64,000 bases of DNA from Atribacter laminatus (GTDB lineage Bacteria; Atribacterota; Atribacteria; Atribacterales; Atribacteraceae), in contig NZ_CP065383.1 of NCBI RefSeq assembly GCF_015775515.1, positions 992,001 to 1,056,000 of the forward strand, read 5' to 3'. Each line of letters begins with the position of its first letter. The first letter of the stretch is position 1. The position numbers were made by a program, and so were the translations under genes. This document shows, piece by piece, positions 26,709-64,000 of this stretch. The notes under the pieces were generated by a model. It worked only from the letters and a program-made list of their open reading frames with translations, ran no database searches and had not been told where the DNA came from.

Positions 26709-27857
26709 TTATTCTGTTGGTTGTTCCTGAGAAGCTGGTTTTGATCCGTCATAAGGGAATGCCTTCATCCGTTCTTCAAGAGACATTCCTAAAGAATTAT
26801 AAAATTTCGACATGGCTACATTGTAATCAAAAACCGCTTGTAAATAGGCATTTTCGGCTTCATAGGCATCATTTCGAGCATCGATGAGTTCGATGCTGGT
26901 AATGGCTCCGGCATCGAAACGAGCTTCAGCGATTTTAAGATATTCGTTAGCTTTGGTTAAATTCTTTTCTTGCAAAGGAACATTGCGTTCGGTAGTTTTT
27001 AACGATTCGTAATTTTGCTGTAATTCGATAAGTATGTTATTTTGAATGCTTTTTAGGCTTACTTTCGAAATTTCTAAATCAACTTGTGATTTCTTTTGGT
27101 TAAGAAGAGGAGTATAGTCATTGGTATTAACTTGGACTTCCTTGGTTTTTAAAGCAACTTCATCTTCGGCTTTTTTTATCTCTAAACGGTGGGTTAGGGC
27201 GTAGTCTGTGCTTTGTTTCAAATCAACGACTGAGGGATTAAATGTCAACTCACTGGTTAATTCAACCGGAATGTTTAAATCTCTTCCTAAAAGCTGGTTA
27301 AAATTCATTTTGGCAATTTGTAAATTACTTTCTGCATTCAAGCGATCGGATTGAGCTTTTGACAATTCATATTCCGCCGAGATGACATCAATTTGGGCAA
27401 CCATTCCTAATGAATATTTAGCTCTTACATTTTCTAATTGTTTTTGAGAACGGTTAATGTTTTCTTGAGCTAAGGCAACCAACCTTTGGAGTTTGAGGAT
27501 ATTGTAATAAGCTTCTTCTACGACTTGTACCTGACTGGAACGAGTGATTTCATAGTTGCGTTGAGCAACCAAAAGTGCGGTTTGATTGGATAGCTCGCTT
27601 AAAATAGATGGATTTAGAAGTAAATCTGCTTTGGTTTGTTGATAGGTCAATTCACTCTTTTTTAGCTCAAATAGAGCTTTTTTCATATCATTTCCATTCT
27701 CTAAGGCAATTTTAACTGCTTCTGAAAGAGTCAGAGGGGTTTTTTTAGTTTCATTGGCAAAGGTTATTAAAGTCATAAGCAAAATGAAAGACAAGATTAC
27801 CATTCCAAACATGAAAGGGCGATACGGTTTTTTCTTATTCTTATTTTTTGAAGACAT
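26709..27857 (-). CDS. TolC-family outer-membrane efflux protein, form B
   Basis: A 382-residue outer-membrane channel protein with an N-terminal signal anchor (FMFGMVILSFILLMTLITFA). It shows the repeated helical pattern of the family: LTLSEAVKIALENG at the mature N-terminus, then QRNYEITRSSQVQVVEEAYYNI, KYSLGMVAQIDVISAEYELSKAQSD, and a second half with EARFDAGAITSIELIDARNDAYEAEN. It is short for TolC. The paralogue at 59998-61170 is very similar along its length. It is the last efflux gene of the operon, after TolC form A. Confidence 0.88.
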   Translation of the reverse strand: MSSKNKNKKKPYRPFMFGMVILSFILLMTLITFANETKKTPLTLSEAVKIALENGNDMKKALFELKKSELTYQQTKADLLLNPSILSELSNQTALLVAQRNYEITRSSQVQVVEEAYYNILKLQRLVALAQENINRSQKQLENVRAKYSLGMVAQIDVISAEYELSKAQSDRLNAESNLQIAKMNFNQLLGRDLNIPVELTSELTFNPSVVDLKQSTDYALTHRLEIKKAEDEVALKTKEVQVNTNDYTPLLNQKKSQVDLEISKVSLKSIQNNILIELQQNYESLKTTERNVPLQEKNLTKANEYLKIAEARFDAGAITSIELIDARNDAYEAENAYLQAVFDYNVAMSKFYNSLGMSLEERMKAFPYDGSKPASQEQPTE

Positions 27858-28044
27858 ATTCCTAACCTCCAGTTTTATTCTTTTTTAAATATCCTATCAG
27901 GTATCATTGTGAAGAAAAATCTTTTTTGTATAAAACAAAATACGGTCCTATTATTTCTTCTTCATTTTTTATGAAAAATCTTTCTTTGAAAATGAAAGTA
28001 AGCAATTTTAATTGATAGAGAATCATTTATCAACTCCCAAACTC

Positions 28045-29517
28045 TCTTTATCTATATCTACAACTCTTCAACCACAATCTCCCTCCCAGCCACCTTGAAG
28101 AGCTGCGCCTTCGAGAGGATAAACCCATAGACCGCCTTCTGGTAATTGAGTTTGGCATTCTCCAGAGCCAATTCACTCTCCTTGAGGGTTCGGTCGGTGA
28201 TAAAACCAGCCTGATACTGCTGGGATTGGAGTCGGTAGGTTTCTTCAGCGATTTGCATTTCTAACTGAGCGGTGAGAGTGTCCTGATCGGATTGGATGAA
28301 GAGCTGGTAGGCATCCAATACCTCAAGGGTGATGGAATCAGGCAGAGCCTGCAGCTTTCTCTCGATTTGGGCCAGGATGATTTCCTGTTGTAGTTTTCGT
28401 TCTCGGGAGATCCCCCCATCAAAGGGAATCCAGGTTACTTCTAACCCCAGTCCCCAGCCGGATGCCGAAGGAGTAAAAGGGTCTTGATTGATGGCGCTGG
28501 TTGAGAAGGTATCCTCCCCTTCTGAGAGCTGACCGGTGACCTTCCAATCCAGGACCCAATCGGGGCTTTGTAGGTCAAACCGGACCGCATAGTTTTCTTC
28601 AACATAGGATCCAATGAGATGAACTTTGGCTTGACGGTTCCGTTCAATCTGCTTCAAGGTGATGGTCTCGATTTCTTTTTGCCAGAGCAAGTCCTTGAGG
28701 TCAGTATGGTCAGATTGAGCGTGGGTGGTTAACTGATCCAATTCTTCATCCAGTGGCTGGTAGGGAAAATCCTTCTCGAGAGTGATTGGGGTGTCGAGAG
28801 GGTACCCGATCATTTGATTGAGCTGCTGTTTCTTGAAAAGCAAACTTTGGTTGGATTGCTCGAGGTTGATCCGGGCCCTTTCTCCGGTTTGTTTGGCCTT
28901 GAGCAGATCCACCGATGAGGCCATTCCTAATTGGTACTGGTTTTCTATATCAGCCTGGAGAGTGTGAGCTTGTTCAAGGGTTCGCTGGGCCATCTCGGCG
29001 GTCCATTCAGCTTTGAGAACTTCCAGGTAAGCGGTGATGGCTTTCAGTTTGGTATTCTCTTCGGCATTCTTGAGAGCATTCTGGGCTTGGCTGAGGGCAA
29101 GGTCAGCTTGCTCCAATTGGTTGGCAAGATCACTGGAGGTCTCATTCAAGGCAATCGAATCACTGATTGAAACCTGAGCATTTGATTCTGCCTCTCCAAC
29201 CAAGGCTACATCTCCAGTGACTTGAACGGTGGGGTTGAACCCTTTTTCCTTTTGAGCAAGACGGCGATTCGACTGGGCAATTTTATAGTTATCCTGGGCA
29301 TCCAGGATCTGGCTATCAGTAGCAAGGGCGAATTCGACTACCTGGGATAGGGTCAAGCTGATTTCCTTTTCTCCAGTATCACTGGCATTGGCATCAAAAG
29401 GAGAAAAGACCAGAAAATATCCGATGAAAACCAAAAGAGCAATGAAGCTATTCCTCTTTTTGCTGAGTCCTCGGTATGTCATGATTGATCATCACCTCAT
29501 TGGGGGAAACAAGTTCT
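28045..29517 (-). repeat. Inverted gene-sized duplication, left copy (TolC-A)
   Basis: This 1473-base segment is repeated in inverted orientation at 57208-58680. The copies have equal length and about a dozen differences by eye. Identity begins at AGAACTTGTTTCCCCC, 35 bases before the start codon, and ends at AGATATAGATAAAGA, 13 bases after the stop. Outside these points the sequences are unrelated. Confidence 0.95.
28058..29482 (-). CDS. TolC-family outer-membrane efflux protein, form A (copy 1)
   Basis: A 474-residue TolC-like channel with a signal peptide (FIALLVFIGYFLVFSPFDA, cleavage near NASD). The first repeat half starts LTLSQVVEFALATDSQILDA and continues with a long helix pair; the second half has QYQAGFITDRTLKESELALENAKLNYQ cut by short loops. 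The protein differs from the copy at 57243-58667 at four positions. Base composition is near 50 percent GC, compared with about 35 percent in flanking genes, which suggests acquisition from elsewhere. It is placed between the MacB-like permease and TolC-B, so this operon would make two channel proteins for one pump. Confidence 0.9.
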   Translation of the reverse strand: MTYRGLSKKRNSFIALLVFIGYFLVFSPFDANASDTGEKEISLTLSQVVEFALATDSQILDAQDNYKIAQSNRRLAQKEKGFNPTVQVTGDVALVGEAESNAQVSISDSIALNETSSDLANQLEQADLALSQAQNALKNAEENTKLKAITAYLEVLKAEWTAEMAQRTLEQAHTLQADIENQYQLGMASSVDLLKAKQTGERARINLEQSNQSLLFKKQQLNQMIGYPLDTPITLEKDFPYQPLDEELDQLTTHAQSDHTDLKDLLWQKEIETITLKQIERNRQAKVHLIGSYVEENYAVRFDLQSPDWVLDWKVTGQLSEGEDTFSTSAINQDPFTPSASGWGLGLEVTWIPFDGGISRERKLQQEIILAQIERKLQALPDSITLEVLDAYQLFIQSDQDTLTAQLEMQIAEETYRLQSQQYQAGFITDRTLKESELALENAKLNYQKAVYGFILSKAQLFKVAGREIVVEEL

Positions 29518-29598
29518 ATGTCGATAAATAATCACGAATCATTAATGAATGCTTCTTCTAAAAACTGGTAGTTCTCCATGAATATAATCTAAAATGAT

Positions 29599-30816
29599 TT
29601 ATTCAAAACGTAAAGCGGTAATTGGATTGAGTTGACTGGCACGGCGTGCCGGATATATTCCGAAAAATAGCCCGACGGCAACGGAAATGCCAAGAGCATA
29701 TATTATCGAAGCCCAGGAAATGGTGGTACTCCAGCTGGATACTTTGGATACAATGAAAGAACTCAGTATTCCTAAAATTATTCCAATTAATCCACCGGTA
29801 AGACTCAAGACTGAAGCTTCAATCATAAACTGGGAGAGGATATCAGTGGTCTTCGCTCCGATGGCTTTTCGCAATCCTATCTCCCGAGTCCGCTCGGTTA
29901 CCGAAACCAACATGATATTCATGATACCGATGCCACCAACTAAGAGAGATATTCCCGAAATAATAACTAAAAAAAGGGTAATGCTACCGGTCACGTTAGT
30001 AACGGTATCTAAAATATCTTGTGAGTTCATAATATCAAATTTATCCGGATCGTTATCGAATTTTCGTAGAAAATAGGCTTCCAAATAATCACTTACACTA
30101 TCCATATCTTCTATAGTGTTCGTTTCTACGGTTATGGTTTGTAGGTATTTACTTCCCGTAATTCTTTTTTGGGCTGTTGTAATAGGAATAAACACCTGAT
30201 CACCACGATCCATGCCCATGCTGGTTTTTTTCTCCATTATTCCAATAACTGTAAAGCTAACATTTCCAATTTTTACTTTTTTGCCAATATTGGAACTGTC
30301 ATCATTGCCAAAAAGGTCTTCAGCAACCGTTTGACCCAATACAACGACTCTGGTCATATGATCCAGGTCATATTGGCTAAAAAAACGCCCCTTAGCTGGT
30401 TTAAAATTTTCAAGCACAGGATAATTTGGAGTAGTTCCTATAATGCTGGTTCTGGTGCTTTCCTTCCCAAAGGTAACAACCTTGTTGGTTGACGCTTGGG
30501 CCCCAATATTTTTTATTCCTCTAACTGGGGAATTTCCTAATCCTAAATAGTGGTCGTAAGTGAGGATATTCATGCCTCCTCTTTGCATGACTCCCATTCC
30601 AGGGGGTACCCTTTGGAAACCAGGTCTTACTGTTAAACGATTAGACCCCAGACTTTGAATTTGGGAAGTAATATTGGTTCTCATTCCTTGACCGACCGAA
30701 ACCATGGTGATAACTGCTGCGACTCCGATAATAATGCCCAACATGGTAAGAAAAGAACGAAGTTTGTTGGATAAAACATTCGAAATAGCACTTTGAAGTT
30801 TTTCAAATATGTTCAT
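29599..30816 (-). CDS. MacB-like ABC transporter permease
   Basis: A 405-residue permease of the MacB/FtsX type. One helix near residues 20-42 (SFLTMLGIIIGVAAVITMV) is followed by a large periplasmic domain (about 45-270), then three C-terminal helices around 280-390 with the ERTREIGLRKAIGAKTTDIL loop. MacB-type pumps use ATP to drive export from the periplasm through an adaptor and TolC without moving substrate across the inner membrane. Here the ATPase is a separate gene 5 bases upstream. The 116-base spacer to TolC-A contains the junction of the duplicated segment. Confidence 0.9.
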   Translation of the reverse strand: MNIFEKLQSAISNVLSNKLRSFLTMLGIIIGVAAVITMVSVGQGMRTNITSQIQSLGSNRLTVRPGFQRVPPGMGVMQRGGMNILTYDHYLGLGNSPVRGIKNIGAQASTNKVVTFGKESTRTSIIGTTPNYPVLENFKPAKGRFFSQYDLDHMTRVVVLGQTVAEDLFGNDDSSNIGKKVKIGNVSFTVIGIMEKKTSMGMDRGDQVFIPITTAQKRITGSKYLQTITVETNTIEDMDSVSDYLEAYFLRKFDNDPDKFDIMNSQDILDTVTNVTGSITLFLVIISGISLLVGGIGIMNIMLVSVTERTREIGLRKAIGAKTTDILSQFMIEASVLSLTGGLIGIILGILSSFIVSKVSSWSTTISWASIIYALGISVAVGLFFGIYPARRASQLNPITALRFE

Positions 30817-30821
30817 AACGA

Positions 30822-31580
30822 TTATATTGCCTCCAAGTTTTCTTTTGCCATCTGGAGAACTTCTTCTGCTTGAGTCGGATCATCAACGGATTCTTCCTTT
30901 TCTAGTTGCCCATCACAAAATCGGAGTATCCGTTTGGAATGAAAAGCAACATCCGGTTCGTGAGTGACTAATATAATGGTCTTTCCTTGTTCATTTAAAT
31001 TTTGAAAAACTTCCAAAACTTCTTCCCCGGATCGAGTATCCAAGTTACCGGTTGGTTCATCGGCAAGGACGATTGATGGATTATTAGCCAGAGCACGAGC
31101 GATTGCAACTCGTTGAATTTGGCCTCCAGAAAGTTGATTCGGACGATGAAATTTTCTTTGGCTAAGCCCCACCTTTTCCAAGAGAGGATTCACTATTTCG
31201 CATCTTTTGGTTTTAGGGATGCCGGCATAAAGGAGTGGAAGTTCAACATTTTGAAAAGCGTTTAATTTTGGCAAAAGATTGAAACTCTGAAAAACAAAAC
31301 CGATTTTACGATTACGAATCATTGCCAACTGGTTTTCTTCAAGGTGGGATACCTCTTCCTGATCAAGAAAATATTGGCCACTGGTGGGTGTATCTAGACA
31401 TCCTAAAATATTCATCAGGGTTGATTTTCCTGAACCAGAAGGTCCCATTATTGAGATAAAATCACCCGGATAAATCTGGAATGTAACATTGGTTAAGCCA
31501 TTGACTTGAATTGATTCCAAAAAGTAGATTTTCCCTAATTTCCTAACGTCAATAACTGGTGAATTGGTTTTTTCGTTCAT
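30822..31580 (-). CDS. MacB/LolD-like ABC transporter ATP-binding protein
   Basis: A 252-residue ATPase that powers the MacB-like permease. Walker [10 protein letters not shown] near residue 42, Q-loop [18 protein letters not shown], signature LSGGQIQR and Walker [14 protein letters not shown] are intact, followed by the H-loop VTHEPDVA. The sequence from NIP-type Q-loop to D-loop is typical of the MacB/LolD/FtsE branch. A short acidic tail follows the core. The paralogue at 58739-59533 is clearly related along the whole length but not near-identical, unlike TolC-A. Confidence 0.92.
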   Translation of the reverse strand: MNEKTNSPVIDVRKLGKIYFLESIQVNGLTNVTFQIYPGDFISIMGPSGSGKSTLMNILGCLDTPTSGQYFLDQEEVSHLEENQLAMIRNRKIGFVFQSFNLLPKLNAFQNVELPLLYAGIPKTKRCEIVNPLLEKVGLSQRKFHRPNQLSGGQIQRVAIARALANNPSIVLADEPTGNLDTRSGEEVLEVFQNLNEQGKTIILVTHEPDVAFHSKRILRFCDGQLEKEESVDDPTQAEEVLQMAKENLEAI

Positions 31581-31610
31581 GAAATTTCTCCTAATAGCTG
31601 TTATTTGCTT

Positions 31611-32891
31611 TTACATTCCAGTGGGGGGTGGACCACCCATACCCATCAGTCCTCGATTGGGTAAAGAATTTTGAATATTTACAGAAGGAATCATTACTTC
31701 CTGATCTTTTTTAAGACCTTCTAATATCTCAAAAAATTCATCATTTCTTAAACCAACTTTTATAAAGATTTTGCCAGGTTCTTTCTGTGATCCTGGAATA
31801 AGAACAAAGGTTTTTCCTTCTTCCTCTATCAGTACTTCTAAGGGGAGCAATAAGGTGTTTTCACTTTGATTTACAATGATAGTTGCATCGACAGTCATTC
31901 CTGGATAGAGCCTTCTATCTGAATTGGGGATTATAATTTCTCCTTCATAGGTTACGATATTATCAATAACTTGTGACTTCAAGGAAATGAAAGACACCTC
32001 TCCCTTGATTATTTCACCAGGAAAAGCATCGAGAGTAATTTCTGCTTTTGCACCGGTTTTTATTTTGGGAATATCAATTTCATTGAATGCTACCAGTGCT
32101 TTCATTTGATCTAAATTTCCAATCGTAATTAGGGTCTTAGCTTGGGTAACAACATCCTCTTTCTCTACTGAAACATCTATGGCAACACCGTCAATCGGCG
32201 AGGTAATGGTTCCATATTCAATCTTTTTTTGGGCATCAACAACGTTAGCTTCTGCTTGGGCTAACTGAGCTCGGGCAACTTTAATATCGTCTTGATCTGA
32301 ACCATCTAAAAGATTATCAAGTTGTTTTTGAGCAGATATAACGTTTTGTTTATAAATTTCCATTTGGTTTTGACTTTCGTTAAGCTCTCGTTGTGAAACG
32401 GCGCCACTCTCGAAAAGTTTTTGGTTTCTTTCGAATTGGATTTGAGCATTTTCATGATTTAATTGAGCTTGTTCAAGAGTCGTTTTTGCCTGGGTGATTT
32501 CTAATTCGGTAGCTCCCTCTATAAGTTTTTTGAGTTTAGTCTGAGCTGATAAGAGCTCGGCCTCGGCTCTTTTTAGATTGGCTTCATAATCGCTAACATC
32601 AAGCTTTACTAGCTCTTGTCCTTTAGTGACCGAATCTCCTTCTCCAATCAAGACAACTTCAACCTTGTAACCATCCTCTTTTGATTTTACATTTACTGTT
32701 TCAGAGGGAGCCAAACTACCCTCGGCTTCAATGGTTTCTCGTATTGTTCCTTCGATTACCTGAATGGTGGGGATGCTTATGTCTTGGGCCTGAGTAGAAT
32801 GAGACTTATTGAAAATGAAAAGGGAAATAATTAATGTGAGTATAAAAATAAGTACAATGGAAACCAGAACCATTTTTTTACTTTTATTCAT
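31611..32891 (-). CDS. MacA/HlyD-type periplasmic adaptor
   Basis: A 426-residue membrane-fusion protein. An N-terminal membrane anchor (VLVSIVLIFILTLIISLFIF) is followed by a lipoyl half-motif, a long coiled-coil hairpin (about residues 105-210; LERTQLNHENAQIQFERNQ-type heptads) and the second lipoyl half GTITSPIDGVAIDVSVEKEDVV. Beta-barrel and membrane-proximal domains complete it, ending in a Gly/Pro/Met tail. It links the inner-membrane MacB pump to a TolC channel. It is encoded 30 bases before the ATPase. The substrates of such pumps include macrolides, peptides, lipopeptides and heme precursors; the sequence does not decide. Confidence 0.9.
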   Translation of the reverse strand: MNKSKKMVLVSIVLIFILTLIISLFIFNKSHSTQAQDISIPTIQVIEGTIRETIEAEGSLAPSETVNVKSKEDGYKVEVVLIGEGDSVTKGQELVKLDVSDYEANLKRAEAELLSAQTKLKKLIEGATELEITQAKTTLEQAQLNHENAQIQFERNQKLFESGAVSQRELNESQNQMEIYKQNVISAQKQLDNLLDGSDQDDIKVARAQLAQAEANVVDAQKKIEYGTITSPIDGVAIDVSVEKEDVVTQAKTLITIGNLDQMKALVAFNEIDIPKIKTGAKAEITLDAFPGEIIKGEVSFISLKSQVIDNIVTYEGEIIIPNSDRRLYPGMTVDATIIVNQSENTLLLPLEVLIEEEGKTFVLIPGSQKEPGKIFIKVGLRNDEFFEILEGLKKDQEVMIPSVNIQNSLPNRGLMGMGGPPPTGM

Positions 32892-35562: not shown

Positions 35563-36868
35563 TGTACGAACGGGGACATAGGTTACACTTTAGTCTAAGG
35601 ACATAGGTAACACTTTTTAATCATCTTGAATCTCCGTTGATTCAAAAGTAAGGGTCTTTTTATCAATTATACCAATATCATAGGTAGAGAAACTAACTAA
35701 CCAGGAATGAGTATAGTCTTTGAATCCGAGAAGTTCACCAGCAAAGACTTTACTGATTCTGATCAGACGGTTGCCATAAAGAGAAATCCGTCCTGAGGAA
35801 TCGACTTTACGAGTGAGCGTATGATGAGGATATTCACAATCACTTAAGGTTTTTGGATAGGGCCGGTCACTTTTGTGGTACCAGGAAGCTGGGGTTTCTT
35901 GGTTGATTGCTTCATGGGGTCGTACGGTGTTATAGATGGTTTTAAAGGTTTCAAAGCGGTCTTGTTGGGTGAAAAGATTGGTGGCTGGTTTTTGACAGGC
36001 CTCTTCTTTTAAGGTGCGGTGCATCCGTTCATGACGGCTATTTTGTTCTGGATGTCCCGGATCAATGCGCTCTAAGATGATGCCGAGTTTCACTAACCAC
36101 ACCGAGAGTTGAGTGAGTCCAAAGGGAGAGTGAAGAGAAGCAAAGGGACTCCCGTTATCACTGCGGATCACCTGGGGAAGACCATATGTGGAAAAGCACT
36201 CTTTGAAGACCGGAAGGGATTCTTGAATGCTGGGAGAGGAAAGAGCTTCACAGGCAAGGAGATACCGGCTATAGTGATCGGTGATGGTTAAAGGATAACA
36301 GTATTTCCGATCTTGGGTTCGAAATTGTCCTTTAAAGTCGACACACCAGATCTCATTGGGTTCATGGCTGGTTCGAAGTTGACTGGTTGGCACACTTCTT
36401 CTCAATCGACGAGGGTGTGATCTCACCAGTCCATGGCGAGATAAGATGGCACTGATGGTACTGATTGCTGGAAAGACAATATCGGGATACTGTCTTTCCA
36501 AGGCGGGCTTGAGCTTTTTAGCTCCCCAACTGGGATGCTTGAATTTGGTATCCAGAATCATTTGCTCGGTCAGGGCATCAGTTTGACCCGCCAGGTGATG
36601 AGGACGTCGGGATTGATCTTTAAGTCCATCCAAACCAAAGGCTTGAAAACGATGAATAAACTTATAGGCGGTTTTTCGAGAGATTCCATATTCTCGACAC
36701 AAATCTGTCACCTTTTCCTTGTTGAGATAACGATAAATCAATTCTTGTCTGAGATCCACTTTGTGTACCTCCGTCCATGGCATAAGGCATTCCTCCTTAT
36801 GCCAGTAGTATACAAAGTGTTACCTATGTGTCAGGAACTTTCTGTTACCTATGTGTCCGGATCATACC
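35563..36868 (-). mobile_element. IS481-family insertion sequence, complete copy
   Basis: An element of about 1306 bases with one transposase gene. The left end reads TGTACGAACGGGGACATAGG. The right end, read inward, is GGTATGATCCGGACACATAGG; both ends also carry a second ACATAGGTAACAC unit about 30 bases inside. A 3-base direct repeat GAG (35560-35562 and 36869-36871) fits target duplication. The insertion splits the repeat module CCTTGATGGGAG-AAGGTGAGG. A second copy in the same orientation starts at 63236. Confidence 0.88.
35617..36783 (-). CDS. IS481-family transposase (copy 1)
   Basis: A 388-residue transposase. An N-terminal helix-turn-helix (VTDLCREYGISRKTAYKFIHRF, cut here by the usual linker) recognises the element ends. 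The integrase core has the DDE residues in EIWCVDFKGQF, VIRSDNGSPF and the Glu of PEQNSRHERMHRTLKEE, about 35 residues apart as expected. The C-terminal region with RPHEAINQETPASWY is typical of the IS481 family. AAGGAGGA lies before the ATG. The frame is intact, so the element may be active. The visible part of the second copy encodes an identical protein. Confidence 0.95.
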   Translation of the reverse strand: MPWTEVHKVDLRQELIYRYLNKEKVTDLCREYGISRKTAYKFIHRFQAFGLDGLKDQSRRPHHLAGQTDALTEQMILDTKFKHPSWGAKKLKPALERQYPDIVFPAISTISAILSRHGLVRSHPRRLRRSVPTSQLRTSHEPNEIWCVDFKGQFRTQDRKYCYPLTITDHYSRYLLACEALSSPSIQESLPVFKECFSTYGLPQVIRSDNGSPFASLHSPFGLTQLSVWLVKLGIILERIDPGHPEQNSRHERMHRTLKEEACQKPATNLFTQQDRFETFKTIYNTVRPHEAINQETPASWYHKSDRPYPKTLSDCEYPHHTLTRKVDSSGRISLYGNRLIRISKVFAGELLGFKDYTHSWLVSFSTYDIGIIDKKTLTFESTEIQDD

Positions 36869-38920: not shown

Positions 38921-39832
38921 TTAAGATTTATACTCTAACATACGCTGAATGCTTCGTTCGGCTCGCTGGCGAATCGTCTCGGGTAGGTTAATCTCCCCGT
39001 AACCAATACGGAGAGAATAAAGGACCTTTTCCAGAGTTATTTTTTTCATGTCGGGACAAATGGCCTGTGCTGAAGCTGGATAAAAGTTTTTCTCAGGATT
39101 TTCTTTACGAAGACGATAGAGTATGCCAGCCTCAGTCCCAATGATAAATTCGCTTTTTTTGGATTGACCAATAAATCGCGACATTCCTTCAGTTGATTGA
39201 ACCTCATCAGCTAAATCAATCACTTCAGGAAGACATTCAGGGTGAACAACAACCAACGCATCGGGATGGAGTTTTTTTTGAAAATGGACATGTTCAGGAA
39301 GAATATGAGCGTGAATTGGACAATCGCCATCCCAGAGTATAAATTGACGCCCAGTTTTTCTCGAAACATAATTGGCTAAATTTTTATCAGGAATAAAAAT
39401 AATTTCTTTGGCATCTTTTAATCCATCAGTAACGATCTTTAGGGCGTTGGCCGATGTACAGCAAATGTCACATTCAGCCTTAACATCTGCAGTTGTATTC
39501 ACATAGGCAAGCACCGTTGCTTTGGGATGTTCTGATTTAAGCTTTTTAACTTCTTGAACGGTAATGGTATCTGCCATTGGGCAACCAGCATTTTTCTCGG
39601 GAAGGAGCACAACTTTATTCGGAGAAAGAATTTTGGCGGTTTCTGCCATAAAACGAACACCACAAAAAACGATGATATCAGCATCAGTTTGGCTGGCTTC
39701 GATGCTCAAACCCAAAGAATCCCCTAAAAAATCCGCAATATCCTGTATGTCTGGGGGTTGATAGTTGTGAACTAAAATAATTGCATTTTTCATTTTTTTT
39801 AATTCTTGAATTTGTTGGATGATCGCATTCAT
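38921..39832 (-). CDS. nadA: Quinolinate synthase A
   Basis: A 303-residue [4Fe-4S] enzyme that condenses iminoaspartate with dihydroxyacetone phosphate to quinolinate in NAD synthesis. The three internally repeated domains are recognisable. The cluster cysteines are in VFCGVRFMAETAKIL near residue 81, in CDICCTSANA near 125 and in AQAICPDMKKIT near 263. The signature HPECLPEVIDLADEVQSTEGM is present. It overlaps mnmA by 4 bases. Neither NadB nor NadC is in the window, so the rest of the pathway is elsewhere. Confidence 0.94.
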   Translation of the reverse strand: MNAIIQQIQELKKMKNAIILVHNYQPPDIQDIADFLGDSLGLSIEASQTDADIIVFCGVRFMAETAKILSPNKVVLLPEKNAGCPMADTITVQEVKKLKSEHPKATVLAYVNTTADVKAECDICCTSANALKIVTDGLKDAKEIIFIPDKNLANYVSRKTGRQFILWDGDCPIHAHILPEHVHFQKKLHPDALVVVHPECLPEVIDLADEVQSTEGMSRFIGQSKKSEFIIGTEAGILYRLRKENPEKNFYPASAQAICPDMKKITLEKVLYSLRIGYGEINLPETIRQRAERSIQRMLEYKS

Positions 39833-40890
39833 CGCAAAACCTCCTTAATGATTCCTCCTCCGATTGCGATTCCTTCACGAGTGTACCATACAACTGATTG
39901 GCCAGGGGTTATATTTTCCAATTTATCATAAAAAATGACCTTTATTTCATGGTTTATTTTTTCTAACATGCACTGATGTTCTTTCTGGGAATAACGCGTA
40001 ACAGCAAAAATTTCCTGGTCAGGGATTCCATCGACTAAATAATTCACCTGAGTAGCGATCAGAGCCATGGCTTGTAAATCTTTTTTTTCACCAACTATTA
40101 CGGCATTTCGAGAAAGATCGATATCGACAACATAAAGAGGATGCGAATTACTGAGTCCTAATCCTTTTCTTTGGCCGATAGTATATAGATATATTCCATC
40201 GTGGTGTCCAAGCACTTTTCCTTGGAGATTAACGATTGGACCTGATAAATCCAGATGAGAACGGTTTTTAAGGAAATCACCATAACCACCCTGAGGAAGA
40301 AAACAAATATCCTGGCTCTCGGATTTTTCATCCATTTGTAAATCAAGTTGATCAGAAAGAGATTTAACCTCTTCTTTGGTGAGATGAGCTAATGGGAAAA
40401 GAATTCTATCAAGGGTTTCCCGAGGGATGCCGTATAAAAAATAAGTTTGATCTTTTGAACGGTCCCGGGGTTTCCGTAAAAAAAATTGATTGTTGATAAA
40501 ATCAATTTGAGCATAGTGTCCGGTGGCAAAATAGTCAAAACCGTTTTTCATGGCATAATTAAACAGAAAACCAAATTTTATCAACCGATTACAGATTACA
40601 CACGGGTTGGGAGTTCTTCCTGATAAATATTCTTTTATAAAAGGCTTTACGACTTCCTTTTCAAATTCGGTGCTTATTTCAAGGGTTTGATGAGGAATCT
40701 CAAGAATTTCACATATCCTTTTCGCATCAATTAACCCCGAACCAGAACGTGGATCGTTAGACGAGCCGTGAATAACTTTAAAAGACATGGTCATCCCATG
40801 AACCTGATATCCTTGTTTTTTTAAGAGGAAAGCAGCAACCGAAGAATCGACTCCCCCACTCATAGCAATTAATATTTTTTTTGTTTTCAC
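39829..40890 (-). CDS. mnmA: tRNA-specific 2-thiouridylase
   Basis: A 353-residue PP-loop ATPase that thiolates U34 of tRNAs for Lys, Glu and Gln. The PP-loop AMSGGVDSSVAAFLL is at residue 9. The conserved cysteines are in TPNPCVICNRLIKFG near residue 100 and SESQDICFLPQGGYGDF near 192. The C-terminal beta-barrel (YTIGQRKGLGL and beyond) is present. It starts with GTG and overlaps larE by 4 bases and nadA by 4 bases, so translation of the three is coupled. Confidence 0.94.
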   Translation of the reverse strand: MKTKKILIAMSGGVDSSVAAFLLKKQGYQVHGMTMSFKVIHGSSNDPRSGSGLIDAKRICEILEIPHQTLEISTEFEKEVVKPFIKEYLSGRTPNPCVICNRLIKFGFLFNYAMKNGFDYFATGHYAQIDFINNQFFLRKPRDRSKDQTYFLYGIPRETLDRILFPLAHLTKEEVKSLSDQLDLQMDEKSESQDICFLPQGGYGDFLKNRSHLDLSGPIVNLQGKVLGHHDGIYLYTIGQRKGLGLSNSHPLYVVDIDLSRNAVIVGEKKDLQAMALIATQVNYLVDGIPDQEIFAVTRYSQKEHQCMLEKINHEIKVIFYDKLENITPGQSVVWYTREGIAIGGGIIKEVLR

Positions 40891-57207: not shown

Positions 57208-58680
57208 AGAACTTGTTTCCCCCAATGAGGTGATGATCAATCATGACATACCGAGGACTCAGCAAAAAGAGGAATAGCTTCATTGCTCTTTTGGTTTTCA
57301 TCGGATATTTTCTGGTCTTTTCTCCTTTTGATGCCAATGCCAGTGATACTGGAGAAAAGGAAATCAGCTTGACCCTATCCCAGGTAGTCGAATTCGCCCT
57401 TGCTACTGATAGCCAGATCCTGGATGCCCAGGATAACTATAAAATTGCCCAGTCGAATCGCCGTCTTGCTCAAAAGGAAAAAGGGTTCAACCCCACCGTT
57501 CAAGTCACTGGAGATGTAGCCTTGGTTGGGGAGGCAGAATCAAATGCTCAGGTTTCAATCAGTGATTCGATTGCCTTGAATGAGACCTCCAGTGATCTTG
57601 CCAACCAATTGGAGCAAGCTGACCTTGCCCTCAGCCAAGCCCAGAATGCTCTCAAGAATGCCGAAGAGAATACCAAACTGAAAGCCATCACCGCTTACCT
57701 GGAAGTTCTCAAAGCTGAATGGACCGCCGAGATGGCCCAGCGAACCCTTGAACAAGCTCACACTCTCCAGGCTGATATAGAAAACCAGTACCAATTAGGA
57801 ATGGCCTCATCGGTGGATCTGCTCAAGGCCAAACAAACCGGAGAAAGGGCCCGGATCAACCTCGAGCAATCCAACCAAAGTTTGCTTTTCAAGAAACAGC
57901 AGCTCAATCAAATGATCGGGTACCCTCTCGACACCCCAATCACTCTCGAGAAGGATTTTCCCTACCAGCCACTGGGGGAGGAATTGGATCAGTTAACCAG
58001 CCACGCTCAATCTGACCATACTGACCTCAAGGACTTGCTCTGGCAAAAAGAAATCGAGACCATCACCTTGAAGCAGATTGAACGGAACCGTCAGGCCAAA
58101 GTTCATCTCATTGGATCCTATGTTGAAGAAAACTATGCGGTCCGGTTTGATCTGCAAAGCCCTAATTGGGTCTTAGATTGGAAGGTCACCGGTCAGCTCT
58201 CAGAAGGGGAGGATACCTTCTCAACCAGCGCCATCAATCAAGACCCTTTTACTCCTTCGGCATCCGGCTGGGGACTGGGATTAGAAGTAACCTGGATTCC
58301 CTTTGATGGGGGGATCTCCCGAGAACGAAAACTACAACAGGAAATCATCCTGGCCCAAATCGAGAGAAAGCTGCAGGCTCTGCCTGATTCCATCACCCTT
58401 GAGGTATTGGATGCCTACCAGCTCTTCATCCAATCCGATCAGGACACTCTCACCGCTCAGTTAGAAATGCAAATCGCTGAAGAAACCTACCGACTCCAAT
58501 CCCAGCAGTATCAGGCTGGTTTTATCACCGACCGAACCCTCAAGGAGAGTGAATTGGCTCTGGAGAATGCCAAACTCAATTACCAGAAGGCGGTCTATGG
58601 GTTTATCCTCTCGAAGGCGCAGCTCTTCAGGGTGGCTGGGAGGGAGATTGTGGTTGAAGAGTTGTAGATATAGATAAAGA
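57208..58680 (+). repeat. Inverted gene-sized duplication, right copy (TolC-A)
   Basis: The partner of 28045-29517 in inverted orientation. Length is exactly the same (1473 bases), with no insertion or deletion seen and about a dozen substitutions clustered around 57968-58010 and 58163-58180. Confidence 0.95.
57243..58667 (+). CDS. TolC-family outer-membrane efflux protein, form A (copy 2)
   Basis: A 474-residue TolC-like protein. Compared with copy 1 I see four residue changes: Asp to Gly and Thr to Ser near residue 245-255, Asp to Asn near 310, and Lys to Arg close to the C-terminus. Domain structure is the same: signal peptide, two repeat halves with long helices, C-terminal equatorial segment. 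GC is again near 50 percent, in contrast with the ATPase behind it. AATGAGGTGATG is the ribosome-binding region and belongs to the duplicated segment. It stands first in the incomplete second efflux cluster; no adaptor or permease gene precedes it. Confidence 0.9.
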   Translation: MTYRGLSKKRNSFIALLVFIGYFLVFSPFDANASDTGEKEISLTLSQVVEFALATDSQILDAQDNYKIAQSNRRLAQKEKGFNPTVQVTGDVALVGEAESNAQVSISDSIALNETSSDLANQLEQADLALSQAQNALKNAEENTKLKAITAYLEVLKAEWTAEMAQRTLEQAHTLQADIENQYQLGMASSVDLLKAKQTGERARINLEQSNQSLLFKKQQLNQMIGYPLDTPITLEKDFPYQPLGEELDQLTSHAQSDHTDLKDLLWQKEIETITLKQIERNRQAKVHLIGSYVEENYAVRFDLQSPNWVLDWKVTGQLSEGEDTFSTSAINQDPFTPSASGWGLGLEVTWIPFDGGISRERKLQQEIILAQIERKLQALPDSITLEVLDAYQLFIQSDQDTLTAQLEMQIAEETYRLQSQQYQAGFITDRTLKESELALENAKLNYQKAVYGFILSKAQLFRVAGREIVVEEL

Positions 58681-58738: not shown

Positions 58739-59533
58739 ATGTTGAATAGCGAAATGAATAAACCGATTATTGTAGTTGAAGAACTAACTAAGATTTATAA
58801 GATGGAAACCTTTGAGTTGAAAGCCCTTCAGAATGTTACTTTTAAAATTTATCCTGGAGAGTTTGTATCGGTTATGGGTCCTTCTGGTTCGGGAAAATCA
58901 ACCTTGATGAATCTTTTAGGATGCCTTGATACCCCAACCAGTGGTCGTTACTTCCTTGACCAACAAGATGTGTCAATGTTGAAAGATAACACTCTGGCAA
59001 CCTTTCGAAATAAAAAAATAGGTTTTGTTTTTCAAAGTTTTAATTTACTGCCAAGATTAGATGCTTTTCAAAATGTGGAATTACCATTGATTTATGCTGG
59101 CGTTTCGAGGGTTGAAAGAAATGAGATGGTTAAAAAATTCTTAGCAAAGGTGGGATTAGAAGATCGAATGCACCATCGGCCTAACCAGCTCTCTGGTGGG
59201 CAAACCCAGCGGGTTGCTATTGCGCGGGCTTTGGTTAACGATCCGTCTATCATCCTTGCCGATGAGCCAACCGGGAATCTTGACACTCGATCTGGTGAAG
59301 AGATCATGCACATTTTTCAAACCCTTAATGATGAAGGAAAAACCATTATTTTGGTCACTCATGAGCATGATATATCACTTCATACCAAAAGAATCCTCCT
59401 TTTTCGTGATGGTCAATTAGTAGGAGATGAAAAAGTAGAAAATCCGGTTCGAGCCGAAGATACTCTCAAGGATGATGAAAACCAAAAGGAAAACCATGAA
59501 TCTGAAAAAAGTCAACTGTCTGCCAAAAATTAA
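58739..59533 (+). CDS. MacB/LolD-like ABC transporter ATP-binding protein, second copy
   Basis: A 264-residue ATPase paralogous to 30822-31580. Walker [11 protein letters not shown]-loop [18 protein letters not shown], signature LSGGQTQR, Walker [14 protein letters not shown] and H-loop VTHEHDIS are intact, so it should hydrolyse ATP. The C-terminal tail is long and charged. Unlike its paralogue it has no permease gene behind it; the next 460 bases are repeats. It could serve the permease at 29.6-30.8 kb, an unlinked permease, or be a leftover. Its start follows TolC-A copy 2 by 71 bases. Confidence 0.9.
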
Positions 59534-59599: not shown

Positions 59600-59965
59600 T
59601 AAAATACCTATTTAAAACCGCCGCTGCGAAGAGTCCAACCGTTCTTGGTTGGACGACGTGGTAAGCTCATTCTCATTGAGCCATTCTTTCATTCTGAGCA
59701 GGGCTGCGTTTTTACCGGACATGATAAGCGTCTCATTTATTCCAATTCCACAATATCACAAAAAATAAAAGATGACTCAAGAGATTGCCACGACCTCAAA
59801 AAATGAGGTCTCGCAATGACGATTCAAAGTTCCTTCTCCCTTGATGGGAGAAGGTGAGGATGAGGGTGAAAGCCCAGGATGAGACTCCAGGAAGAGATCC
59901 TGGTTCGTTACTTAGTATGATTTACCAAGTAAAATCATTCCGGTATTTTCAGTATAGGATAAAAT
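59600..59965. repeat. Repeat island 5
   Basis: Gene-free mosaic where a permease gene would be expected. It contains a degenerate hairpin repeat around GTCCAACC/GGTTGGAC (about 59620-59670), a degenerate partner around 59690-59735, a perfect hairpin repeat at 59781-59820 (inner stem GACCTCA/TGAGGTC), the CTCCCTTGATGGGAG module (about 59835-59862) and the 80-base stretch shared with cobQ and radC leaders. Confidence 0.75.
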
Positions 59966-59997: not shown

Positions 59998-61170
59998 ATG
60001 TTTGATGGTCACCAATCAAGGAAGCAATTTAAACAATTATTTTTAGGAAGTGTACTTTTTTTAGGGCTGGTAATTTTGTTTACATTTGGAGTTTTTGCTG
60101 AAGAAACAAATAATCCACCACTTACCCTTTCTGAAGCAGTCAATATTGCATTAGAAAACGGAAACGAAATGAAAAAAGCACAATTTGATTTACAACAGAA
60201 CGAATTAAATTATAAAAAAACGAAAGCGGATTTGCTTCTAGCTCCTTCTATTTTGAGTGAACTTTCTAATGAAACTGCATTATTAGTTGCCCAACGGAAT
60301 TATGAAATTACTCGTTCCAATCAAATCCAGGTGGTCGAAGAAGCTTATTACAATATTCTCAAACTCCAACGGTCAGTAGTTTTAGCTCAAGAAAATATTA
60401 GTCGTTCTCAAAAACAATTAGAAAATGTAAAAGCTAAATATTCATTAGGAATGGTTGCCCAGATTGATGTGATCTCGGCAGAATATGAATTATCAAAAGC
60501 CCAATCAGACCTTTTAAATGCGGAAAGCAATTTACAAGTAGCCAAAATGAATTTGAATCAACTTTTGGGAAAAGATTTAAACGCTCCTGTAGAATTAGCG
60601 AGCGAATTGGTTTTTAATCCCTCAAAAATCGATTTGGAAAAAAGCATTGAATATGCCTTGGAGCATCGTCTTGAAATTAAAAAAGCCGAGGACGAAGTGA
60701 TCCTAAAAACCAAAGAGGTTCAGGTTAATACCAATGATTACACGCCAGTTATCAACCAGCAGTTATCTCAAGTTGGATTACAGATTTCATTGGTTAATCT
60801 TGAAAATATTAAAAATAATATCCAAATTGAACTGAAACAAATCTTTGAGGCATTCAATACTGCTGAACGGGCTGTCCCGCTCCAGGAAAAAAGCTTAATC
60901 CGCGCTAATGAGTACCTGAAAATTGCTGAAGCGCGATATGATGCAGGGGTTATTACCAGTATTGAACTTATCGATGCTCGAAATGAAGCATATCAAACAG
61001 AAAACGCCTATTTACAAGCGGTATTTGATTATAATGTTGCAAAATCAAAGTTTTATAATTCTTTAGGAATGTCATTAGAAGAGCGGGTGAAGGTATTTTC
61101 TGATGAGGGATCAGGAACAGTTCGTGAAAAACAAGACACTGAAGAAGAGGGAGAAACGCCCACTAATTAA
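59998..61170 (+). CDS. TolC-family outer-membrane efflux protein, form B paralogue
   Basis: A 390-residue outer-membrane channel protein, paralogous to 26709-27857 over the full length. Shared stretches include QRNYEITRSNQIQVVEEAYYN, KYSLGMVAQIDVISAEYEL and EARYDAGVITSIELIDARN. N-terminal signal anchor FLGSVLFLGLVILFTFGVFA is present. Divergence from the paralogue is moderate, much larger than between the TolC-A copies. The C-terminal tail is acidic. AGGAGGTG precedes the ATG. It is followed 24 bases later by the asparagine-synthetase-like gene, so the two form a transcription unit. Confidence 0.88.
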   Translation: MFDGHQSRKQFKQLFLGSVLFLGLVILFTFGVFAEETNNPPLTLSEAVNIALENGNEMKKAQFDLQQNELNYKKTKADLLLAPSILSELSNETALLVAQRNYEITRSNQIQVVEEAYYNILKLQRSVVLAQENISRSQKQLENVKAKYSLGMVAQIDVISAEYELSKAQSDLLNAESNLQVAKMNLNQLLGKDLNAPVELASELVFNPSKIDLEKSIEYALEHRLEIKKAEDEVILKTKEVQVNTNDYTPVINQQLSQVGLQISLVNLENIKNNIQIELKQIFEAFNTAERAVPLQEKSLIRANEYLKIAEARYDAGVITSIELIDARNEAYQTENAYLQAVFDYNVAKSKFYNSLGMSLEERVKVFSDEGSGTVREKQDTEEEGETPTN

Positions 61171-61194
61171 AAATTAAGAGAATGGAGGAAAAAT

Positions 61195-62538
61195 ATGGCA
61201 GGTATTGTCGGAATATATCAAGGAAATCAAATCTCTCTGATTGAAAAACTTTTACCAGAAATTGCTTATCGAGGTCAATCAGGGAAGACACTTTTCCAAG
61301 ATGATCATTGTTCTCTCGGAATGGTATGGACTGATGCCCAGGCACCTCCCTTGCGATCGGAGAAAAATAAAATAATTTATGAAGACCAGGGTGGCGATGG
61401 TCGTTTAGCGAAAATAATCCTAAGCAAGGAAAATATCTTTCTAACTCGTGACTTCCTTGGAATTGCACCACTCTACTATGGTTGGAAAGATAATGAGGTT
61501 TTAATGTTCGCTTCAGAGGTAAAGCCTTTGTTAAAAATTGTACCGGAAATCAATGAGCTTTTGCCTGGATATGTATTTAATGGAAAAGACTTGGTTTACC
61601 AAGTGAAATTACCACAACAATCAGCCTTAAAAGACGACCCCAACCAGATTGCCCATAAGCTTTATAAAATATTATCGGAAGCGGTTCAAAACTGCATATC
61701 TACTCAGGAAATTGGATCTTTGTTATCGGGTGGTTTAGATTCCAGTGCCATATCAGCTATTGCCCGCCATGATATAAAAACATTTCATACTTTTGCCGCA
61801 GGGATAGCTACAGCTCCAGACCTTTTGTATGCTCGTGAGGTTGCGGAACATATCGGTTCCATTCACCACGAAATGGTTGTTACCCAACAAGATTTAATAG
61901 CAATATTACCAGAGGTTATCTATCATTTGGAATCCTTTGATCCGTTATTGGTTCGATCAAGTGCAACCAATTATTTAGTTGCCCGCTTAGCGGCTGAATA
62001 TGTCCCTGCGGTTTTTTCCGGTGAAGGTGGGGATGAATTGTTTGCCGGTTATGATTATTTAAAATCAATTCCCACTGAAAAGTTGCCCGATGAATTAAGG
62101 GATATCATGCTTCGTCTTCACAATACAGCTTTGCAGAGGGTAGATCGTTGTGCTTCTGCCTTTGGTATTGTAGCCTATGTACCCTTTCTTCACCCCGATG
62201 TTGTCAGTTTCGCTTTAAGCATCCCTCCTCAGTATAAAATAAAGAATCAAGAAGAGAAGTGGATTTTGCGATGCGCATTGGAAAATGAACTCCCAAATCG
62301 AGTTCTTCATAGAAAGAAAGCCAAATTTTGGGAGGGAGCTGGAGTCAATGAAATTTTAGCTTCCTATGCGGAAGAGAAAATTGCAGCATCAGAATATGAA
62401 AAAGAGCGTATTCTCCCGAATGGATGGAAACTGCATTCTCGGGAAGAATATCTTTATTATAAAATTTTTAAAGATTGTTTTGGCAAAGTAAATCGTCTTG
62501 ACTGGATGGGCCGGACGAAAACCTATTCAGAAAATTAA
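61195..62538 (+). CDS. Asparagine-synthetase-like protein without glutaminase cysteine
   Basis: A 447-residue protein of the AsnB superfamily. The N-terminal Ntn-type domain is recognisable (GIVGIYQGN, RGQSGKTLF, DFLGIAPLYYGW) but short, about 120 residues, and the catalytic Cys at position 2 is Ala (MAGIVG), so it cannot release ammonia from glutamine in the usual way. The synthetase domain has the PP-loop LLSGGLDSSAIS near residue 180 and FSGEGGDELFAGYDY near 278, so ATP chemistry is probably kept. It may use free ammonia or another amine acceptor, as in beta-lactam and lasso-peptide-type relatives. It is co-transcribed with the TolC-B paralogue. Confidence 0.83.
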   Translation: MAGIVGIYQGNQISLIEKLLPEIAYRGQSGKTLFQDDHCSLGMVWTDAQAPPLRSEKNKIIYEDQGGDGRLAKIILSKENIFLTRDFLGIAPLYYGWKDNEVLMFASEVKPLLKIVPEINELLPGYVFNGKDLVYQVKLPQQSALKDDPNQIAHKLYKILSEAVQNCISTQEIGSLLSGGLDSSAISAIARHDIKTFHTFAAGIATAPDLLYAREVAEHIGSIHHEMVVTQQDLIAILPEVIYHLESFDPLLVRSSATNYLVARLAAEYVPAVFSGEGGDELFAGYDYLKSIPTEKLPDELRDIMLRLHNTALQRVDRCASAFGIVAYVPFLHPDVVSFALSIPPQYKIKNQEEKWILRCALENELPNRVLHRKKAKFWEGAGVNEILASYAEEKIAASEYEKERILPNGWKLHSREEYLYYKIFKDCFGKVNRLDWMGRTKTYSEN

Positions 62539-62599
62539 CTGTTTTTAAGAATAATGTTTTCCCAATTAAGATGTAGTAAATTTCTTCAAGGAGAACAAT

Positions 62600-63235
62600 T
62601 AAAGCTACCATTCTATCCTGAAAATACCGTGAACCGTGAAGCGTGAATTGTGAGCAGTTTAAAAATCCACCCTCATCCTCACCTTCTCCCATCAAGGGAG
62701 AAGGAATGATATAATTTTTTTCCCTCGCCCCTTCGTGGGAGAGGGTCAGGGTGAGGGGGATACCTATTTTCATCCTTACCTAGTTCTTCTAGACATCATG
62801 AGGGTCTATCCAGAAAATACCATCTTATAAATTCCCCCATTGAGGGGGGATAAAGGGGGGTGTGCCTTTAATCGGTCATCCTGAGCCCTCGCTTTTCGAG
62901 GGCGTGAGGATCTCATCTTTTAAGTTTTTTCTTCATAAATACTTTAAATGATGAGATTCTTACGTCGTCCGGCAAAAACACCGGACTCCTCAGAATGACT
63001 AAGTGGATGGTAGAGATTGCCACGTCGCACAAGACGCTCCTCGCAATGACCGAGCAGGAAAAAAACTCAAATCCCCCTTACCCCCTTTGCTAAAGGGGGA
63101 AACGATTCCTGGGAAGGCATTTTCATCCTCATGTGGTGCTGCATAAGCAGCATGAGGGTCTATCCTGAAAATATCGTGAATCGTGAAGCGTGAACTGTGA
63201 GCAGTTTAAAAATCCACCCTCATCCTCACCTTCTC
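62600..63235. repeat. Repeat island 6, target of second IS copy
   Basis: Gene-free mosaic. Two direct copies of one 70-base run (TCCTGAAAATA through CTCATCCTCACCTTCTC, about 62612-62695 and 63168-63235) frame it. It also has the CCCCTCACCC module in reverse (about 62722-62762), hairpin repeats at 62875-62914, 62953-62999 and 63013-63050, and the AGCATGAGGGTCTATCC module. Confidence 0.8.
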
Positions 63236-64000
63236 TGTACGAACGGGGACATAGGTTACACTTTAGTCTAAGGACATAGGTAACACTTTTTAATCATCTT
63301 GAATCTCCGTTGATTCAAAAGTAAGGGTCTTTTTATCAATTATACCAATATCATAGGTAGAGAAACTAACTAACCAGGAATGAGTATAGTCTTTGAATCC
63401 GAGAAGTTCACCAGCAAAGACTTTACTGATTCTGATCAGACGGTTGCCATAAAGAGAAATCCGTCCTGAGGAATCGACTTTACGAGTGAGCGTATGATGA
63501 GGATATTCACAATCACTTAAGGTTTTTGGATAGGGCCGGTCACTTTTGTGGTACCAGGAAGCTGGGGTTTCTTGGTTGATTGCTTCATGGGGTCGTACGG
63601 TGTTATAGATGGTTTTAAAGGTTTCAAAGCGGTCTTGTTGGGTGAAAAGATTGGTGGCTGGTTTTTGACAGGCCTCTTCTTTTAAGGTGCGGTGCATCCG
63701 TTCATGACGGCTATTTTGTTCTGGATGTCCCGGATCAATGCGCTCTAAGATGATGCCGAGTTTCACTAACCACACCGAGAGTTGAGTGAGTCCAAAGGGA
63801 GAGTGAAGAGAAGCAAAGGGACTCCCGTTATCACTGCGGATCACCTGGGGAAGACCATATGTGGAAAAGCACTCTTTGAAGACCGGAAGGGATTCTTGAA
63901 TGCTGGGAGAGGAAAGAGCTTCACAGGCAAGGAGATACCGGCTATAGTGATCGGTGATGGTTAAAGGATAACAGTATTTCCGATCTTGGGTTCGAAATTG
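63236..64000 (-). mobile_element. IS481-family insertion sequence, second copy (cut by window edge)
   Basis: The first 765 bases are the same as in the copy at 35563-36868 wherever I compared them. The left flank ends CTCACCTTCTC, which is the reverse of the flank at copy 1, so the element sits at the same base of the same repeat but in the opposite relative orientation. Confidence 0.9.
63290..64000 (-). CDS. IS481-family transposase (copy 2, N-terminal part outside window)
   Basis: The C-terminal 236 residues of the transposase are visible, and the frame is open to the right edge. The DDE residues VIRSDNGSPF and PEQNSRHERMHRTLKEE are present, as is the C-terminal RPHEAINQETPASWY segment. 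The visible part is the same as in copy 1. Confidence 0.93.
   Translation of the reverse strand, partial: QFRTQDRKYCYPLTITDHYSRYLLACEALSSPSIQESLPVFKECFSTYGLPQVIRSDNGSPFASLHSPFGLTQLSVWLVKLGIILERIDPGHPEQNSRHERMHRTLKEEACQKPATNLFTQQDRFETFKTIYNTVRPHEAINQETPASWYHKSDRPYPKTLSDCEYPHHTLTRKVDSSGRISLYGNRLIRISKVFAGELLGFKDYTHSWLVSFSTYDIGIIDKKTLTFESTEIQDD

Follow-up and report, generated by a model that had tools for sequence, protein, structure and literature searches.

What reaction is left to an enzyme of the asparagine synthetase family whose glutaminase nucleophile has gone? The question is raised by a gene at 61195–62538 (forward strand) of the window, by which we mean the whole 64,000-nucleotide stretch of Atribacter laminatus DNA analysed here; from its open reading frame and its Pfam and NCBIfam scores, it encodes a Cys-less AsnB-type ligase of 447 amino acids. 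The sequence-only reading of this DNA had seen a protein that starts with MAGIVG, Ala taking the place of the nucleophilic Cys, and had put forward two options, a new amide-bond chemistry like that of beta-lactam synthetase or lasso-peptide cyclase, or the use of ammonia; a TolC gene close upstream had raised the possibility of a small modified product for export. The host genome is a single contig of 3,101,225 bases, and the G+C content of the window (38.2%) may be set beside the 38.69 mol% reported for A. laminatus RT761 (PMC7736352).

Glutaminase and synthetase halves of the protein

The MAGIVG start holds in the 447-residue frame, which stands behind a GGAGGA ribosome-binding site (61184–61189, forward strand, 5 nt before the ATG). 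An alternative start cannot supply the missing Cys, because only eight sense codons (KLREWRKN), none of them Cys, lie between the preceding in-frame stop and the ATG. A sequencing slip is likewise ruled out, as none of the 13 Atribacterota homologues whose N-terminus can be read has Cys (G000–G005, G011, G012, G014, G016, G023, G027 and G041; those of G006 and G019 are unreadable). What remains of the Ntn glutaminase domain spans residues ~1–135 (61195–61599, forward strand, the domain end being approximate) and is decayed. Its Pfam GATase_7 match (33 bits) is to the tail of the domain only, covering positions 76–122 of a 123-position profile, so the domain is truncated, in keeping with the shortness first noted; the whole protein counts 447 residues against the 554 of E. 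coli AsnB.

The extent of the loss was followed in an alignment of 39 rows of our own selection, 16 Cys-less and 23 with Cys, using E. coli AsnB numbering. Among the Cys-less rows position 1 is Ala (10) or Ser (6), and Arg-49, Asn-74 and Asp-98 are kept in none of the 16, Glu-76 in one and Gly-75 in 11; the Cys-bearing rows keep Arg-49 in 22 of 23 cases and Asn-74, Gly-75, Glu-76 and Asp-98 in every case. Glu-398 is found in 1/16 Cys-less rows, as opposed to 23/23 Cys-bearing rows, and is Val in the window protein; its human counterpart, Glu-414, is described as absolutely conserved and near the glutamine pocket (PMC6748925), and the residue as a partner of the tunnel gate (PMC11615228). In the window protein the stretch that would carry Arg-49, Asn-74, Gly-75, Glu-76 and Asp-98 is deleted, and with it the glutamine pocket of a glutamine-dependent AsnB; throughout the genus the entire NGE-containing stretch is gone. 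Elsewhere the counterpart of NGE reads DGQ (G027), DGE (G232) or DGG (G415), which, as aligned, is a graded picture of decay. With the pocket stretch deleted and Glu-398 absent, the glutaminase loss is supported and runs deeper than Cys-1 alone, and use of glutamine by the window protein appears very unlikely. E. coli AsnB with the C1A change is reported still to fold and to bind AMP and glutamine (PMC11615228).

The synthetase half scores 222 bits against Pfam Asn_synthase in two stretches (PF00733, cut-off 21), as expected of an AsnB-type synthetase domain, and the two motifs picked out at first sight are both present in the translation: GEGGDELFAGY and the ATP pyrophosphate loop SGGLDSS (61726–61746, forward strand, residues 178–184). 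Gly-347, Glu-348, Asp-351, Arg-387 and Lys-449 are retained in 16/16 Cys-less rows and Arg-324 in 13/16. In human ASNS the aligned residues are Glu-364 (E348), Asp-367 (D351), Arg-403 (R387) and Lys-466 (K449); human Glu-364 and Asp-367 variants are inactive or weak (PMC6748925), Lys-466 touches phosphate in a model and Arg-403 touches the substrate carboxylate in simulations (PMC6748925; PMC11615228). Judged by these alignments, there is a real, conserved Cys-less branch of AsnB that has lost its glutaminase residues and kept those for ATP and catalysis.

The aspartate-pocket residues of class I AsnB (T321, T322 and D384) read L, L and A in the window protein. Thr-321 and Thr-322 (human T336 and T337) belong to a TTxR motif that is replaced by LLVR (61945–61956, forward strand, residues 251–254), with the Arg kept and both Thr lost, and Ala-312 (62128–62130, forward strand) aligns with E. 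coli Asp-384 and human Asp-400, a position that is Ala in 15 and Gly in one of the 16 Cys-less rows. In human ASNS, the T336I change leaves almost no glutamine-dependent activity, and a computed model has Asp-400 helping to shape the pocket for the amino group (PMC6748925). The LVR...QRVDR motif of the window protein is, however, common to relatives that keep their glutaminase: nine Cys-bearing ‘LVR’ proteins have Leu-322 (9/9), Val-323, Asn-384 (9/9) and Arg-324 (7/9), and L134, the only one scored, lies above the NCBI cut-off for asparagine synthase B (584 vs 499 bits). Most of the pocket changes are thus seen beside a working glutaminase too, and do not by themselves imply a new substrate. 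An AlphaFold2 model of the window protein with L048 and L050 had a pLDDT of 37.8 and was set aside.

Placement and distribution of the Cys-less branch

A profile of nine homologues compared with solved structures matched E. coli AsnB best (288 bits), ahead of human ASNS (~240), CarA (107), a hydroxyamidotransferase (99) and beta-lactam synthetase (88). The window protein itself scores 333.8 bits with NF006949 (cut-off 499) and 227.2 bits with TIGR01536 (cut-off 267.1), in both cases below the cut-off, as it also is with the lasso-peptide cyclase model NF033535 (105.9 vs 525 bits) and the albusnodin cyclase model (53.9 vs 300 bits). The cyclase score, together with the preference of the profile for AsnB over beta-lactam synthetase and CarA, speaks against the new amide chemistry once proposed.

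The trees were built from AsnB-type rows, CarA, beta-lactam synthetase and lasso cyclase being outside their scope. In the full-length tree (midpoint root) a single clade (93/92) takes in all 16 Cys-less rows and lies among class I and Cys-bearing LVR sequences, and class II stands apart from all of these (98/99); placing the protein in an AsnB tree had been the proposed check, and it groups with the AsnB-type enzymes. In the tree of the synthetase domain only, the Cys-less rows need two changes and are united in 4% of bootstrap trees. A single origin of the Cys loss is therefore not firm, while both trees recover an 11-row core, the window protein included, as a clade (100/99 and 100/100). 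A search of contigs with the single protein had given four loci, of which L049 (stop) and L051 (distant class II) were kept out of the AlphaFold2 model, and the wider relatives came from genome searches. Trees and counts exclude G001, which runs into a contig end, the decayed G006, G019 for want of an N-terminus, G014 as a close copy of G012, G004 with its in-frame stop, G041 with a stop and the frameshifted G023 and G150, as well as class I L096, L097, L100 and L101, class II proteins beyond the nine used and the synthetase-only L103–L106; L118 and L128 were kept in trees and counts despite their shortness.

Compared with class I AsnB (E. coli AsnB and human ASNS; NF006949), the window protein shares SGGLDSS, D319, R324, E348, D351, R387 and K449, but lacks Cys-1 and the glutamine pocket and carries LL for TT, Ala for D384 and Val for E398. 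With Cys-bearing LVR AsnB (L134 and L120 of G437) it shares LVR...QRVDR and its side of the class II branch, whereas those relatives have an intact Cys, NGEIYN, Glu-398 and, where the window protein has Ala, Asn-384. Crenarchaeal PurF' is likewise an Ntn amidotransferase relative whose N-terminal Cys has become Ala or Val, and ammonia use is proposed for it; it differs in its phosphoribosyl transferase partner domain and in serving the purine pathway (PMC3261824). Ammonia use is presumably common to AsnA and the window protein, although the two families are unrelated. Titles and abstract openings of the papers searched named no Cys-less AsnB of Atribacterota, which is not proof of absence, and two papers never use the word ‘asparagine’ in their main text (PMC7736352; PMC11227167).

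The family is present in 15 of the 50 Atribacterota genomes searched (G000–G006, G011, G012, G014, G016, G019, G023, G027 and G041), in one of them as a remnant; no member was found in the other 35, in a set with many incomplete drafts. Core members also occur in five of 100 genomes of a second phylum, which we suspect to be Bipolaricaulota. Four of these (G389, G391, G394 and G397) nest among Atribacterota in both trees, which suggests horizontal transfer; the fifth, in G150, is frameshifted. Within the genus of the window, dN/dS is 0.14–0.22 in six pairs of four genomes, a range that marks purifying selection on the Cys-less gene. Lesions were found as well: an in-frame stop in G004, frameshifts in G023 and in G150, whose genome is one contig, and in G006 a decayed, strongly changed copy accompanied by an intact class II protein. 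Decay or interruption in these four genomes fits a dispensable function, but G004 (~630 contigs) and G023 (~310 contigs) are draft assemblies, so their lesions may be errors.

Other reduced AsnB forms came to light in these searches. Three loci (L122, L124 and L125) hold a second Cys-less form, with MSAIAG or MSALAG at the start and DGG or DGD, from which the substrate Arg has gone too, CVSG or CISG replacing LVRS. In the second phylum, three other genomes (G413–G415) have a Cys-less form set apart from the core, also without Arg-324. Four genomes carry synthetase-only relatives (L103:1198–2208, L104:1399–2373, L105:1483–2433 and L106:221–1207), open frames of 317–337 amino acids with a CxxC zinc-ribbon-like tail and no glutaminase domain.

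The exporter neighbourhood

The TolC-type gene seen upstream is confirmed: TolC2, an outer-membrane channel of the TolC family (59998–61170, forward strand; PF02321, 121.6 bits), ends at 61170, 24 nt before the AsnB-like gene, and from this spacing we infer that the two are co-transcribed. Promoter-like matches in the region were no more than expected by chance (8 found, 8.8 expected). Further upstream lie a MacB/LolD-type ABC ATPase (58739–59533, forward strand, by profile matches) and a second TolC-family channel, TolC1 (57243–58667, forward strand), which has 99% DNA identity to 28058–29482. This exporter copy has no HlyD and no permease beside the AsnB gene. A complete paralogous exporter without an AsnB gene, named by reading translations, is encoded on the reverse strand at 26709–32891 and comprises HlyD-like, ABC ATPase, MacB-like permease, TolC1 and TolC2 genes.

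Where contigs reach, the gene order in the genus is TolC1, ABC ATPase, TolC2, AsnB-like and CorA-like, with a TolC2–AsnB gap of 24 nt in the window and 23–29 nt in five congeners; in the window the AsnB-like and CorA-like genes are separated by an insertion-sequence transposase and repeats. An exporter adjoins the family gene in nine of the 15 Atribacterota carriers (G000–G006, G012 and G014), on the 5' side in the window's genus and G006 and on the 3' side in G012 and G014. The order is HlyD, ABC, permease, TolC2 and AsnB remnant in G006; AsnB-like, HlyD, ABC, permease, TolC1 and TolC2 in G012; and AsnB-like followed by HlyD at the contig end in G014. No exporter was seen in the six remaining carriers, where both flanks are visible only in G011 and G016, the contigs of G019, G023, G027 and G041 ending beside the 5' side of the gene. 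These neighbours in relatives were named mostly by reading ORF translations, apart from two Pfam/NCBIfam scans and a BLAST of G012. The window or the DNA just beyond it holds counterparts of the G012 exporter and AsnB-like gene, and likewise of two aldo-keto reductases and an RseC-like gene of that genome; part of the exporter linkage is therefore inherited synteny. The suspected link to export is thus real in the genus and two further genera, but it is in part old synteny and is absent from G011 and G016; an exporter-linked modified product is possible, and TolC2 probably just lies next to the gene and takes no part in the reaction.

A short precursor peptide upstream, which a modified product might have called for, did not emerge: no conserved one was present among 103 short ORFs of the gaps compared across genomes, where matches ran to 8–35 residues, the longest linking G012 with its close relative G014. 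The best candidate within the genus, a 30-residue ORF at 62554–62646, was rejected; apart from the window, it stays open in the sister genome G003 alone, G002 and G005 keep neither its frame nor its start, and a dispersed repeat makes up its second half. Inspection, mostly by eye, recognised no RiPP, NRPS or leader-peptidase gene beside the AsnB gene.

The locus is rich in repeats. A 39-nt repeat (59830–59868) and its inverted partner (62668–62706) bracket the TolC2–AsnB pair, and dispersed repeats occupy intergenic gaps (59832–59854, 62682–62745 and 63159–63235: CCTTCTCCC...GGGAGAAGG and longer elements), some of them being inverted partners around that pair. One transposase (388 aa) is present in two copies that read alike, at 35617–36783 and 63290–64000, the latter running past the window end just downstream of the AsnB-like gene. 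The two TolC1 copies (57243–58667 and 28058–29482) lie in a block that is 99.05% identical over 1473 bp, with operon neighbours of only 65–73% protein identity, and third-position G+C is 0.56 in the 57243 copy versus 0.27–0.35 in eleven other genes; by these sequence measures, either gene conversion took place here recently or a foreign gene was duplicated.

A separate observation concerns a gene pair, an opine-dehydrogenase homologue (PF02317) and a 545-aa B12-binding protein weakly like methylaspartate mutase E, found at L134:4301–8571, L112:11532–14298, L153:3352–6144 and L152:11252–15001 (own genome C1:452251–456000). The B12-binding protein was matched, in some cases partly, in 41 of 386 genomes; in the own genome it lies at C1:454375–455994, 0.6 Mb from the window gene. 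At the Atribacterota loci read (own genome and G012) the pair follows an ORF that by eye reads like an ATP-grasp ligase, and elsewhere it adjoins AsnB, CBS or Na/H-exchanger genes, with AsnB relatives beside it in G437 and G232. The pair may represent an undescribed amino-acid pathway. As evidence on the window gene the link was dropped, the B12 protein being present also in genomes with no AsnB-like gene, for instance G010 and G013.

Asparagine supply and the likely reaction

AsnA (PF03590) was found in none of 61 genomes, the own genome included, and no second AsnB was found in the own genome. The only other PF00733 match there (39829–40890, 23.3 bits, cut-off 21) reads by eye like a tRNA thiouridylase and was rejected. 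A true AsnRS is encoded (551 bits, cut-off 414), so free asparagine is usable. The genome also has GlnRS (730 bits), GatB and an AspRS reading RRRDHGG, and His in RDHGG marks a non-discriminating AspRS. Of 14 Atribacterota AspRS regions examined, ten gave the motif, all with His (RDHGG in L113, L160, L163, L165–L169, L171 and L172); the motif was missing in G011, G012, G015 and G027, in the last probably because another synthetase had been taken. No tRNA genes lie within the 64-kb window. Together, AsnRS, GlnRS, GatB and the His-type AspRS suggest tRNA-dependent asparagine synthesis, and a similar gene set is reported to make asparagine on tRNA in Bdellovibrio (PMC4206432). Protein asparagine may thus be made without the window enzyme, which makes it less likely that the enzyme is an essential asparagine synthetase and leaves room for another substrate. 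The sequence-only reading had set against its modified product an ordinary ammonia-dependent asparagine synthetase in a cell with no other AsnA or AsnB; the AsnB grouping and the lack of both enzymes bear half of this out, but the cell apparently has the tRNA-dependent route.

With somewhat better than even confidence, we favour an AsnB-type ligase that depends on free ammonia, has asparagine as its most likely product and works beside the tRNA-dependent route. In the retained synthetase site, ATP would adenylate a carboxylate, for which the beta-carboxylate of aspartate is the likeliest candidate; attack on the adenylate by free ammonia, taken from solution, would then yield an amide, most likely asparagine, in what would be a role supplementary to synthesis on tRNA. 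Of the two options first offered, ammonia use is the better supported, and the branch most probably uses it. A. laminatus medium is described as holding 10 mM NH4Cl (PMC7736352), and human ASNS has been assayed with ammonium chloride as nitrogen source (PMC6748925). Aspartate appears the likeliest substrate, though asparagine as the product is weakened by the altered pocket (human T336/T337 and D400) and by the tRNA-route genes.

The same features could point to an ammonia-dependent ligase that amidates another carboxylate, its product perhaps leaving through the MacB–TolC type exporter, which we regard as possible but doubtful. T321/T322 and D384 are not only changed but conserved in their changed state, a second asparagine route seems present, and related AsnB-like enzymes amidate mDAP (PMC8554201) or, according to a preprint, amidate peptide C-termini and make nitriles (PMC13060819); one may add the same-class relatives of G437 and G232 with their opine-dehydrogenase and B12-binding neighbours. 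LVR, however, also occurs in relatives that keep Cys, although with Asn-384 and not Ala, and one of them scores above the cut-off of the AsnB model. The exporter adjoining the gene in 9/15 carriers argues for export, but none is present in G011 and G016 with both flanks in view, none is seen in G019, G023, G027 and G041 up to a contig end at the 5' side, and the G012 gene set has window counterparts, so adjacency can be inherited; moreover, the complete exporter at 26709–32891 does without AsnB and the copy beside the gene lacks HlyD and permease. A fuller version, in which the branch would be a distinct family of ammonia-fed acid-amide ligases with a non-aspartate substrate, derived from Cys-bearing LVR AsnB and moved between Atribacterota and the second phylum, with a MacB–TolC exporter releasing the amide product in Atribacteraceae and the G012 family and protein asparagine made on tRNA, strikes us as unlikely.

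Two further readings carry less weight. Beta-lactam synthetase, CarA and lasso cyclase also have no working glutaminase, the former two with an AsnB fold, and the change of D384 to Ala should open the pocket, so a cyclase or condensing enzyme in which the amine of the substrate itself attacks the adenylate comes to mind; yet the cyclase models (105.9 vs 525 and 53.9 vs 300 bits) and the weaker profile matches to CarA and beta-lactam synthetase (107 and 88 vs 288 bits for AsnB), a locus with no recognised antibiotic gene cluster, RiPP, NRPS or leader-peptidase gene, and the 103 short gap ORFs with no conserved precursor make it very improbable. That the protein is catalytically weak or vestigial and heading for loss would agree with the stop in G004, the remnant in G006, the frameshifts in G023 and G150 and the 35/50 Atribacterota genomes with no member found. 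It sits poorly with the dN/dS of 0.14–0.22 and with E348, D351, R387 and K449 in 16/16 Cys-less rows, and two of the lesions are in the drafts of ~630 and ~310 contigs, so that we hold it to be improbable.

If the favoured reading, a ligase fed by free ammonia, is true, the enzyme would be nature's version of the C1A mutant made of AsnB in the laboratory, in a lineage that has given up glutamine and the ammonia tunnel, and loss of the glutaminase might suit cells in ammonia-rich anoxic places. The branch offers a ready set for asking which AsnB residues serve the glutaminase only, human Glu-414 tracking the Cys closely, and should its substrate prove new, it would be one more AsnB relative wrongly named asparagine synthetase. 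It also lets one ask why a cell with tRNA-made asparagine would keep such an enzyme, whether for asparagine or for another product.
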